Positions 49,594 through 61,872 of a stretch of DNA of 64,000 bases are shown piece by piece. Both the position numbers and the translations under genes were made by a program. Location of the stretch: the IMG/VR virus record IMGVR_UViG_3300044712_000991, positions 62,001 to 126,000 of that record, one strand, 5' to 3'. Numbering within the stretch: position 1 is the first letter of the stretch; the number at the start of each line of letters is the position of its first letter. The notes under the pieces were generated by a model that did no database searches, had not been told where the DNA came from, and was given only the letters and a program-made list of their open reading frames with translations. The DNA is from a virus.

Positions 49594-50362
49594 GAGCGGG
49601 TACTCCTTTCACTTGAAGTACATGTAGTTCAGGGAAGGACACAGCGGTCAGTACACCAGACTCGTAGCATCCTGTGTCCACCCCGCACGTGTGGTTCACG
49701 AACCTCGGGGTCTCCCCGATGATGCGGTGACCGTAGAACACGAAGTCCTTCCCTTCGTATGTGTTCTCCCACTCAATGCGATTGGGGAACCCCTCGGGGG
49801 TCACGCCATCCCTCGGACCGAACAGCGCGTACGGTGCGACCTTCTCCACCGGATCGTTGAGCATGCCCTCGTAGTACCCCGCGTGCACCACGACCGCCTG
49901 TTGACCATCGGGTGTGCGCAGGACAGCCATGAGAGGCCACTTGGCAAGCAATCTCCTGTAGTTCTCGACCCACGGGTGACCCACCCCCGTGACTTGGAAC
50001 ATCGTCTGCTCCAGACCGTTCGTGAGTTGCACCTGTGCACCCCCGAGAGCCCTCATGAGTTTGTGGTCGTGATTGCCGAGCACGACCTCGAACGCCGAGT
50101 GGGGATTGTCATCGTACACCCCCACGGTGTACGCCTTGTAGTACGCCGTGTGCAAGGCCATCAGCGAGTCGGGTCCACGGTCGCAGATGTCCCCCGCACA
50201 GACCACCGCGCTCTGTACAGGCACCTCCCCACCGAGATCGTACTCCTTGATCTGTTGCAGGAGTTGCTCGAACTGCGTGTTCATCCCGTGCACATCTCCG
50301 ATGATCCAGAAGCGCGGGGCTTCGATGACCTTCGTCTTCAACAGATTACTGAACTTCGCCAT
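49586..50362 (-). CDS. calcineurin-like phosphatase, Pnkp-phosphatase-like
   Basis: A complete 258-residue metallophosphoesterase: GDVHGMNTQFEQLLQQI (residues about 22-38), GDICDRGPDS, GNHDHKLMRAL, VVVHAG and YGHRIIGETPRF, which supply the two-metal site. The end (GVDTGCYESGVLTAVSFPEL) matches phosphatases of the ApaH/PrpA and bacterial Pnkp central-domain type, which remove 2',3'-cyclic or 3' phosphates from RNA ends or act on proteins. It overlaps the kinase gene by 17 bases, recalling the kinase-phosphatase order of Pnkp. AAGGTGAG gives the start. Protein phosphatase activity is the alternative. Confidence 0.85.
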   Translation of the reverse strand: MAKFSNLLKTKVIEAPRFWIIGDVHGMNTQFEQLLQQIKEYDLGGEVPVQSAVVCAGDICDRGPDSLMALHTAYYKAYTVGVYDDNPHSAFEVVLGNHDHKLMRALGGAQVQLTNGLEQTMFQVTGVGHPWVENYRRLLAKWPLMAVLRTPDGQQAVVVHAGYYEGMLNDPVEKVAPYALFGPRDGVTPEGFPNRIEWENTYEGKDFVFYGHRIIGETPRFVNHTCGVDTGCYESGVLTAVSFPELHVLQVKGVPAHG

Positions 50363-50840
50363 TGCTCACCTTGTCCTCGTTGATGAATGGAAACGATCTC
50401 TGGAGATCGATGTGATATCTCGCCACAACATCCTCGGGCACCTTGCGGTCTCGCAGGGCGTTCGCCGCGAGAGCCTCCTCCACGGAGGTGTCGATGATGA
50501 TGTACACCACGCGGTAGCCGTACTTGCGTGCGTAGTCCTGCATGATCTTCCGTGTGCGTGCCTTCACCATGTACGCCGCATCGAAGATGACATCCACACG
50601 GGCGGTCATCGTGGCGTGCATGCGTTCGTACGCGAGTGCCCAGGCACGACCGTTCACCGACTGGTCGGACTCATTACCCACGAGTTCCCCACGGATGGTG
50701 TCGGGGCAGATGACGTTCACCCTCAGGAGATCGGCGTGCGTGAGCAGACCGTACTCCAGGATTTTGGCTAGCGTGGACTTCCCGCTCGCGATACCCCCGA
50801 TAAGGAGGTACAACACGGGGGTTCTGTTCGGCATCTCCAT
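50346..50840 (-). CDS. P-loop polynucleotide kinase-like protein, 164 aa
   Basis: The ATG at 50840 overlaps the upstream stop and has AAGGAA eight bases before it. Walker A is IGGIASGKSTLAK near residue 12. ICPDTIRGELVGN follows, then a lid-like YARKYGYRVVYIIIDTS and LRDRKVPEDVVARY. This is the pattern of T4 Pnk / Pnkp N-terminal 5'-OH kinases and related AAA_33 proteins, with an Asp-Arg general-base region. It would phosphorylate 5'-OH RNA ends after nuclease cleavage. Nucleoside or other small-molecule kinase is an alternative. Neighbouring phosphatase and the distant Rnl1-like ligase favour RNA repair. Confidence 0.78.
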   Translation of the reverse strand: MEMPNRTPVLYLLIGGIASGKSTLAKILEYGLLTHADLLRVNVICPDTIRGELVGNESDQSVNGRAWALAYERMHATMTARVDVIFDAAYMVKARTRKIMQDYARKYGYRVVYIIIDTSVEEALAANALRDRKVPEDVVARYHIDLQRSFPFINEDKVSNGEVQ

Positions 50841-51259
50841 CAGTCTTCTTCCTTTTCTGCTTTCGGGCGTGCCACCTTCTTCACGAGTTCCGCGTGTTTC
50901 GCGGGGTCGTACGGGATGACCTCTGTGTTGGGCGAGATGCCCGTGGTACTTCCTGTGGCGGGGTACGCAACATCTATGGTGCCCCACCCAACACCGAGAA
51001 TCTTGACCACCTTGTTGCACTCGGGGATGACGTACATCTCCCCCACCTTCCCCTCGTAGAGAAAGAACACCCCCTTGGGGAGTGCGTACGGGCGTTCGGT
51101 CGGGACATCCGATTCCTCGGGCGCTGGTGTTTGCGGGGGCGCTTGCCGTGCCTTCTCTTCCTCAAGCATCTCCTGGATTGCGATGGCCTTCTGCCCCTCG
51201 TACTCCGCCTCCACCAACTGCTCAGTCTGTTCTTCGGACATCTGTTGCTGCTCTGACAT
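50840..51259 (-). CDS. hypothetical acidic protein, 139 aa
   Basis: The ATG at 51259 is chosen (AAGGAGCG). The first 50 residues are Glu/Gln-rich (SEQQQMSEEQTEQLVEAEYE) followed by a Pro-rich linker and a small beta domain (KGVFFLYEGKVGEMYVIPE; KVVKILGVGWGTIDVAYP). The C-terminus is basic-acidic. No family recognised. It leads the kinase-phosphatase group in the same transcript. Confidence 0.65.
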   Translation of the reverse strand: MSEQQQMSEEQTEQLVEAEYEGQKAIAIQEMLEEEKARQAPPQTPAPEESDVPTERPYALPKGVFFLYEGKVGEMYVIPECNKVVKILGVGWGTIDVAYPATGSTTGISPNTEVIPYDPAKHAELVKKVARPKAEKEED

Positions 51260-53880: not shown

Positions 53881-54384
53881 TTATTTACCGTGACACTTCT
53901 TGTACTTCTCGCCGCTTCCGCAGAAACAGGGGTCGTTGCGACCGATGTTCGTCGGGATAACGACCCCTGTGTCGGTCATCAGAAGACCATCGAGGTGGTC
54001 GAGTTCGTGCTGGTAGACGATGGCATCCATCTCGGTCAGCACGTACGTCCCACCGAGGTCATCCGAGGCCTCGCACTGAGAGTAGCGTGGGACGAGACAT
54101 TGTACTCCGGGAAGGCTGAGGCAACCCTCGCGGGACTCCACGAGGGGCTCCCGGAGTTCGCGCATCATGGGGTTCGCCACCCTGATGATCTTCCGCTCGT
54201 CCTCAACCATCGAGTAGTACACGAACGCCCTGCGCTGGATACCCACCTGTGGGGCGGACACTCCAATGGCCTCCGAGCATCCTCTGAGCGTTTCTTCGAG
54301 GATGCGGAAGACCTGCTCCTGTTCCTCGACCGCAAGGGGGAGGCAGATGAGACTCAACTGCTGCCTGTCGGTCACGATGCGCAT
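53881..54384 (-). CDS. peptide deformylase with C-terminal SEC-C motif
   Basis: The ATG at 54384 with AGGAGG is used. Three deformylase motifs are present: AIGVSAPQVGI (motif 1), REGCLSLPG with the metal-binding cysteine, and YQHELDHLDG with the two histidines and catalytic glutamate. At 167 residues including its tail the enzyme core is compact. The C-terminal 19 residues RNDPCFCGSGEKYKKCHGK are a SEC-C zinc motif known from SecA and fused proteins. The enzyme removes the formyl group of new polypeptides. Phage deformylases are known; the SEC-C tail is unusual and may guide it to ribosomes or SecB. Confidence 0.9.
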   Translation of the reverse strand: MRIVTDRQQLSLICLPLAVEEQEQVFRILEETLRGCSEAIGVSAPQVGIQRRAFVYYSMVEDERKIIRVANPMMRELREPLVESREGCLSLPGVQCLVPRYSQCEASDDLGGTYVLTEMDAIVYQHELDHLDGLLMTDTGVVIPTNIGRNDPCFCGSGEKYKKCHGK

Positions 54385-54632
54385 GTGCACCCTCCTGCAT
54401 CGCACAGCGTAGGCGCTTCAATCGTGGAGGTGGATAAGACCTTCACGAACAGCACGCCCCGATGTTTCTGCTCCTCAGGGGCATCCTCGACACCCACACT
54501 GACAAGTCCTGCCAGGGGTGGGACTTCCTTGTACGCCACCTGTGTCGAGATAGAAGCGAGCAGTTGCTTCGCATCATCCTCCGACAGCAGGAGAGTCCAG
54601 CGCTTCATGCTCTCATTGTATTCCAGAGTCAT
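54372..54632 (-). CDS. hypothetical protein, 86 aa
   Basis: Short protein with DDAKQLLASISTQVAYKEVP and VLFVKVLSTSTIEAPTLC, ending in a Cys-rich tail CDAGGCTCAS. GAGGAGGAAC lies upstream at slightly long spacing. It overlaps the deformylase start by 13 bases, suggesting coupling. No family recognised. Confidence 0.6.
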   Translation of the reverse strand: MTLEYNESMKRWTLLLSEDDAKQLLASISTQVAYKEVPPLAGLVSVGVEDAPEEQKHRGVLFVKVLSTSTIEAPTLCDAGGCTCAS

Positions 54633-60264: not shown

Positions 60265-60858
60265 TTAGACTTCCACGCGCTCGTAGACCTTCTTCATCAC
60301 ACCCATCCCCTCAAGATTCTGACAAATCTTGAGGATATCCCCAGGGTGTACGGCGTTCTGATCATACCCCTGGATGTTGATGGCCGCCACGACGATAGGA
60401 GAATCCGTGGTGAGAAGCATGCCCACAAACTCGACCTCCGAACAAATCTCGTTGTCGGGGAAGAAGTTTTTGTGTGCCCAGCGTGCGGGGAGGTGCAAGC
60501 CCGTGACCATCCAGCGCCACATGAACCAGAACAACTGTGCCCACCCGTAGGTGTTCCCCACATACTTGTGGTAGACTGACCACATAGCTTTCTCAGCGTT
60601 CCGTGCGTGCTTGAGCCAACGGTAGACCATCACGTCGTAGTGTGGGTTGGCGGCAGTCCTCTCCCACGGAGTGACGCTCACTGTGAGGTTGGCCTCGAAG
60701 ATTGTCTGCTCACCGTTCTGCTGATTGAAGAACCCGAGAGCGCAGTGGGACCATGGGCTACCAGTGAAGAACCGAATAGCCTTGGACAGGAAATTACCAT
60801 CCCTGTTGTTCACGAAGATGACATCCCCGGGGTTGATAACAAACGTCGTTTTCTGCAT
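60265..60858 (-). CDS. YiiX-like NlpC/P60-superfamily cysteine hydrolase
   Basis: The ATG at 60858 with AAGGAGAAC is used. INPGDVIFVNNRDGNFLSKA, then SPWSHCALGF with the histidine, FEANLTVSVTPW, and further EICSEVEFVGMLL with the probable catalytic cysteine: the circularly permuted YiiX/DUF830 pattern of the NlpC/P60 superfamily. Family members cleave peptide or ester bonds in cell wall or lipids. A role in lysis or host envelope modification is possible. The membrane-like FWFMWRWMVTGLHLP segment may associate with membranes. Confidence 0.75.
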   Translation of the reverse strand: MQKTTFVINPGDVIFVNNRDGNFLSKAIRFFTGSPWSHCALGFFNQQNGEQTIFEANLTVSVTPWERTAANPHYDVMVYRWLKHARNAEKAMWSVYHKYVGNTYGWAQLFWFMWRWMVTGLHLPARWAHKNFFPDNEICSEVEFVGMLLTTDSPIVVAAINIQGYDQNAVHPGDILKICQNLEGMGVMKKVYERVEV

Positions 60859-60892
60859 TGGGGTTCTCCTTGACAGATGGAAGTACTGTGGA

Positions 60893-60967
60893 TGGCACAT
60901 CCACCTCGATTCGAACGAGGAAAACAGGATTTGGAGTCCTGCGGTTTACCGTTGAGCCTATGGATGC
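60893..60967 (-). tRNA. tRNA-Trp (anticodon CCA)
   Basis: Acceptor GCATCCA/TGGATGT (one G-U), anticodon stem CAGGA/TCCTG with loop CTCCAAA (anticodon CCA), T-stem CCTCG/CGAGG around TTCGAAT, discriminator G, encoded CCA. The D-stem is imperfect. Confidence 0.9.
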
Positions 60968-61059: not shown

Positions 61060-61335
61060 CTACAAGTCTTGAGGCTGTTGCCCAAGCCATTCGACGTACA
61101 GCATCACCGGCCAGAAGACCCAGCTCACACCGAACACGAGTGCCGCATGCTGGAAGGAAGGATCATCTTCACGCCCCCTGATGACCGCCCCGATAGTCCA
61201 GGAGACCCCGAACGCGAAGTACGTCATGAACGGGAGGAAGAAGTACAGCACGAGCAGAATGCCGAGTATCCAGAGGATGTCCTTCAGCGTGAGTGGCACG
61301 CCGAGGAAGTCCGTGATGCGCGAGAAGATGGACAT
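61060..61335 (-). CDS. membrane protein with about three spans, 91 aa
   Basis: The ATG at 61335 follows AAAGGAA; the upstream extension would run into the tmRNA gene. Hydrophobic segments LKDILWILGILLVLYFFLPF, MTYFAFGVSWTIGAVI and AALVFGVSWVFWPVMLYVEW. It sits between the tmRNA and initiator-like tRNA genes. No family recognised. Confidence 0.65.
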   Translation of the reverse strand: MSIFSRITDFLGVPLTLKDILWILGILLVLYFFLPFMTYFAFGVSWTIGAVIRGREDDPSFQHAALVFGVSWVFWPVMLYVEWLGQQPQDL

Positions 61336-61355: not shown

Positions 61356-61815
61356 TGGTGGACATGCCGGGAGTCGAACCCGGTTCTACCAAGTACCACG
61401 TACAGAGTCTTTCACAGGTTTGGTCGGTTTACCACGCATCCTGAGGCAAGGACTCCGACAAACCTCCGTCCTCGGATGTTGCGTTCCCACAGCACAATCC
61501 CCAGGGAACGCCATGGGGTACAACACGTACCGCGATCGATCGGCTTTTGTTATCGTGAGGCAAGAGCATTTGCTGTGTCCGTCCGGGTGGAAACGGTCTT
61601 GCGACCTCGGTGCCTACTCTTGAGCCGACTACCCCACACCCTAGTGGCTGTTAGGCCAGTTCGAGTTCACCCGCGCCGACCAACGCCAGAGCGTCGTCGA
61701 AGGTGAAGGCAGAGATTTGTTCTGCGTTTGTTTTTTGAACCCTGATTTACGTGGTGTGTTCACCCACGACCTGCACCCTGGACATAACACTCAGTATCGA
61801 GGCCAAGTCATGCCC
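61356..61815 (-). ncRNA. ssrA: tmRNA (ssrA), phage-encoded
   Basis: Both tRNA-like ends are present: 5' GGGCATG pairs with 3' CATGTCC, including G3-U70, the alanyl-tRNA synthetase signal; A73 and encoded CCA follow. The T-arm CCGGG/CCCGG around TTCGACT is perfect. The 5' D-loop-like TGACTTGGCCTCGATACTGA matches the tmRNA consensus, as does the CAGGGTGCAGGTCGTGGG region. After an A-rich stretch, an open frame from GCA (61727) to TAA gives a long tag (24 residues, ending ELELA). Near the 3' end TGAAAGACTCTGTACGTGGT resembles the E. coli region before its T-arm. Length 460 nt is above average. Confidence 0.92.
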
Positions 61816-61817
61816 AT

Positions 61818-61872
61818 ATGTGGCTGTCTTCCTATTCGAACGACCGAGGCTCCCAAGGTGTCACAGCCACAT
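61818..61872 (-). other. hairpin abutting the tmRNA 5' end
   Basis: A 10-bp perfect stem, ATGTGGCTGT (61818-61827 on +) with ACAGCCACAT (61863-61872), encloses 35 bases that include TTCGAA. It ends two bases before the tmRNA 5' terminus on the minus-strand transcript. It may direct 5' processing, or be a remnant of a tRNA reduced to acceptor and T-arm parts. Confidence 0.55.

Follow-up and report, generated by a model that had tools for sequence, protein, structure and literature searches.

The window analysed here, a stretch of 64,000 bases, corresponds to bases 62001-126000 of a 194,278-base IMG/VR virus record (IMGVR_UViG_3300044712_000991). Comparison with all Rfam families by cmscan revealed a match to tmRNA (RF00023) at 61815..61356 on the minus strand, with a score of 83.1 bits (gathering score 47; E = 9.9e-31) and an alignment spanning the whole model (positions 1-374 of 374), which places the gene in the tmRNA family. 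Read 5′ to 3′, the tmRNA starts GGGCATGACTTGGCCTCGA and finishes CCGGGTTCGACTCCCGGCATGTCCACCA. An earlier sequence-only reading had put a complete tmRNA at 61356-61815 and proposed Infernal with Rfam and ARAGORN as checks; cmscan bore out the gene with exactly these ends and supplied the strand, which had not been given. The features of the gene are as follows:

61356..61815, minus strand: tmRNA (ssrA) gene, one-piece, 460 nt including the encoded CCA (full-length RF00023 match)
61809..61815, minus strand: 5′ strand of the acceptor stem, GGGCATG (full pairing with 61360-61366)
61770..61774, minus strand: inner part of helix 2, 5′ strand GCAGG, pairing with CCUGU (cmscan alignment; identical in the relative G004, see below)
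61736..61768, minus strand: pseudoknot PK1, CGTGG/CCACG and TGAAC/GTTCA (both stems pair)
61651..61725, minus strand: tag frame from resume codon GCA to TAA, AEQISAFTFDDALALVGAGELELA and stop (translation; frame 0 best against the G004 tag)
61645..61658, minus strand: helix 5, a TGGC/GCCA hairpin whose loop holds the stop codon (pairing and fold)
61481..61511, minus strand: 8-bp hairpin GCGTTCCC/GGGAACGC in the 3′ pseudoknot region (minimum free energy and centroid folds of the whole RNA)
61414..61418, minus strand: inner part of helix 2, 3′ strand CCUGU (cmscan alignment)
61367..61383, minus strand: T-arm CCGGG TTCGACT CCCGG (stem of 5 bp, perfect; compensatory changes in G004)
61356..61366, minus strand: 3′ strand of the acceptor stem, CATGTCC, with A73 and the encoded CCA, holding U70 of the G3.U70 pair (sequence and helix check)

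The molecule has a tRNA-like acceptor stem of 7 pairs, G3.U70 among them, and a T-arm of five pairs (CCGGG/CCCGG); the paired ends GGGCATG/CATGTCC with G3-U70, followed by ACCA, and the perfect T-arm had both been pointed out in the sequence-only reading. That reading had also described a reading frame after an A-rich stretch, and this too was confirmed: PK1 is followed by the A-rich stretch CAAAAAACAAAC, the GCA resume codon, an open tag frame of 24 codons and a TAA located at helix 5. In the PK2-PK4 region, 3′ of the tag, the 8-bp hairpin is predicted to be stable, RF00023 aligns poorly and one relative was compared; agreement with the model was low in the middle third of the RNA. The minimum free energy of the whole RNA was unremarkable (z -1.19), as expected because tmRNA is built on pseudoknots, and tmRNA identity is supported by the covariance model and by the relative, not by plain folding energy. 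It was also noticed that a 10-bp inverted repeat (ATGTGGCTGT/ACAGCCACAT, 61818-61872, minus strand), situated two bases upstream of the mature 5′ end, folds as a hairpin; this is possibly a leader or processing element, with a weak fold signal (z -1.64).

Under its default settings ARAGORN gave no call at the locus; when the settings were relaxed, its sole call was a permuted form on the other strand, which is spurious. The D-loop is diverged (TTGGCCTCGAT vs the usual TGGATTCGAC), and the miss is probably due to this divergence together with the 460-base length. An intron was considered as the source of the extra length and dropped, the 5′ domain, 3′ domain and tag being intact and the G004 tmRNA being similarly long.

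The gene lies within a phage genome, since structural genes in the window matched tail sheath and baseplate wedge families and a terminase-family match was found elsewhere in the IMG/VR record. Eight tRNA genes in the record scored above the Rfam cut-off, of which those for Met and Trp have the orientation of the tmRNA and lie downstream of it by less than 0.5 kb, with a short reading frame (61060-61335) between. Three other genes of this region, all on the minus strand, were noted: 1) a peptide deformylase (53881-54405) that carries a SEC-C motif at its C-terminus and is translation-related, close to the tRNA and tmRNA genes and also present in G004, 2) an AAA_33 P-loop protein, zeta-toxin-like or polynucleotide-kinase-like (50346-50957), and 3) a YaeF/YiiX-like permuted papain amidase (60265-60900; sub-threshold in Pfam), which adjoins the tRNA genes and has a 32% identical relative in the sheath-bearing contig G003. 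In the phage collection, no record had DNA similarity to 41000-64000, the tmRNA DNA gave only short T-arm matches (to tRNA genes where annotated), and the nearest sheath was that of Bacillus phage G, with 27% identity.

Searching IMG/VR with the sheath, and then with an alignment of its relatives, yielded four contigs with 66-68% sheath identity. One of these, G004 (IMGVR_UViG_3300033233_000004; 171,836 bases), whose sheath is about 68% identical to that of the window phage, contained a tmRNA at 135595-136010 (105.2 bits). From sheath to tmRNA the distance is about 35 kb in G004 vs about 31 kb in the window, strand and side being the same, and a deformylase and a helix-hairpin-helix DNA-glycosylase-like gene in this interval are common to both phages (51-55% identity). 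The two tmRNAs are much diverged, with TGCAGGTCG, ACAAACGCAGAA and AAACCTGTGAA kept. G3.U70 is present in both, and the acceptor pair A5-U68 of the window is replaced by G5-C68 in G004, a compensatory change; the T-arm pairs are likewise kept with changed bases. Stem 2 of PK1 is TGAAC/GTTCA in the window vs GTTAC/GTAAC in G004, again compensatory, whereas stem 1, complete in the window, has one mismatch in G004. The G004 gene was observed to end in ACTA, not ACCA (L019:1501-1504, minus strand), and its CCA would therefore have to be added after transcription. In G003 (L005; 69,657 bases), a sheath relative expected to reach the matching place, no tmRNA was found anywhere and no tRNA genes were called in the last 34 kb. 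Therefore, the tmRNA gene is not universal or fixed in this group of phages, in which tmRNA and tRNA content varies.

Further relatives were sought in several ways. A strict tmRNA pattern gave no match in the viral contigs, and a pattern built from the window and G004 tmRNAs recovered only G004 from them. Eight bacterial loci carrying the shared motif were rejected as chance occurrences, none of the eight being a tmRNA by ARAGORN, and DUF932 relatives were too distant to be useful. Of the four compared myoviruses whose structural genes are related, Astraea had a tmRNA above the cut-off, Tunturi_5 and Rctr197k had sub-threshold matches that were mostly tRNA-sized, and Skog had no tmRNA match.

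The tag frame of G004 reads AEAKSSTAFVDEAGILVFADESELVPVMV and stop; it was called independently by ARAGORN and has the same layout. The tags are 24 (window) and 29 (G004) residues long and neither ends in the usual -AA, the window tag finishing -ELELA, not the common -LAA, which is a common and not a defining feature. SsrA tags commonly end in LAA, and the last three residues have been described as critical (PMC9382460). Alignment of the two tags scored 31 in the predicted frame vs 20 and 15 in the two other in-phase frames, and once the AE start common to both was left out, 36 of 5000 residue shuffles did as well. These values are modest evidence that the tag peptide itself is conserved between the two phages. 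A search of phage records with the window tag peptide gave no match. For comparison, we took viral contigs in which the tmRNA 5′ end is close to the consensus, a convenience sample that favours canonical genes and could contain some host DNA; of the 63 tags that ARAGORN called in it, most were 10-15 residues long, six were at least 23 residues, and 55 ended in AA (8/63 did not). The window tag is thus unusual and not unique, because some of the sampled tags, and those of phage G and Astraea, are also long or without -AA.

Phage tmRNAs are already known, and the window gene adds one well-supported member. They had been described for eight mycobacteriophages and phage G, with a tRNA-like domain in DS6A (PMC4131195), and in 2021 were present in 402 of 18,146 phage genomes (about 2%), as 133 distinct genes (PMC9004378). 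The sequence-only reading, which held them to be known only in a minority of large phages, was right as to rarity, which is less extreme than it implied. Comparison with the known cases indicates that 1) the G004 tmRNA is also one-piece, with resume codons GCA GAA, a long tag and the shared pattern A-E...S...F.D.A..LV.A.E.EL, but has 416 nt, a 29-residue tag ending PVMV, ACTA at the gene end and a D-loop nearer the consensus, 2) Astraea, a cluster C mycobacteriophage (Bixzunavirus) whose sheath matches that of phage G, which in turn matches that of the window phage, has a full-length tmRNA with a long acid-rich tag (ATDTDATVTDAEIEAFFAEEAAALV) ending -LV and not AA, but it is 435 nt long with a different tag and had no DNA match to the window tmRNA among the matches listed, 3) Bacillus phage G is a myovirus with a full-length tmRNA and a tag (AKLNITNNELQVA) ending -VA, but the molecule has 312 nt and the tag is short, and 4) Melnitz-like marine phages carry a two-piece, permuted ssrA together with a glutamine riboswitch (PMC9004378), unlike the one-piece tmRNA of the window.

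The gene is anatomically complete, it lies in a virus, its structure is conserved and a relative has a tag resembling its own; we consider it highly probable (about 0.88) that the window gene is a functional phage-encoded tmRNA. Weighing against this are the ARAGORN miss, the non-consensus D-loop, the failure to find SmpB in the virus record, the -ELELA end of the tag and the absence of the tmRNA from G003. The diverged D-loop and the low agreement with RF00023 in the middle third would also fit a decoy or decaying molecule, one that is inert or that blocks trans-translation in the host by binding its SmpB or AlaRS; mycobacteriophage DS6A has the tmRNA-like domain alone, and tmRNA is inhibited by a molecule of similar kind, perhaps through titration of SmpB (PMC4131195). 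This is unlikely, as the acceptor stem and T-arm pair perfectly, an open tag frame, PK1 and the stop-bearing helix 5 are all present, and PK1 and the tag are kept in G004. A host ssrA remnant acquired through an integration site, or misassembled host DNA, is less likely still: ssrA is a common attachment site, with integration there well established, and fragments of it can be carried by phages (PMC9004378), but here the whole gene is present, 5′ half included, between phage genes on the same strand, G004 carries a copy of its own about as far from the sheath, and the search of bacterial genomes turned up no tmRNA with the shared motif.

For a functional phage tmRNA, charging, use of SmpB, tagging and a benefit from tagging can be predicted by analogy, as can the rescue of stalled ribosomes and the possible redirection of tagged host or phage proteins that the sequence-only reading put forward. 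tmRNA is alanylated via G3.U70, and SmpB and EF-Tu bring it to ribosomes that have stalled on truncated mRNA, where the nascent protein is tagged and released at the stop codon. Accordingly modelled, the window transcript would be trimmed to GGGCAUG...CCA, alanylated through G3.U70 by the AlaRS of the host and bound by host SmpB and host EF-Tu. SmpB was not found in the virus record, nor ClpP in the window phage and G004, and host proteins would therefore have to serve. The charged tmRNA would enter ribosomes stalled on cut or truncated mRNA, translation would switch to the GCA resume codon, and (A)AEQISAFTFDDALALVGAGELELA would be added to the stalled protein, with a stop at UAA. The phage might gain by keeping ribosomes cycling while mRNA is degraded during infection; roles suggested for phage tmRNAs include maintenance of the hijacked machinery or the tagging of host proteins so that they are recycled (PMC9004378). 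Host proteases may read the tag, or, given its atypical end, may read it more weakly or differently than the host tag. A tentative and rather doubtful extension is that the long, conserved, non -LAA tag has a changed role, in which ribosomes would be freed while the tagged proteins are spared host ClpXP or sent to another protease or partner.

Annotation by ARAGORN with default settings would overlook the tmRNA of the window phage. Its recognition brings a full tmRNA to light in a group of large myoviruses about which little is known. With the window phage and G004, which are diverged and have similar long tags, selection on phage tags beyond the standard degradation signal of the host becomes testable.
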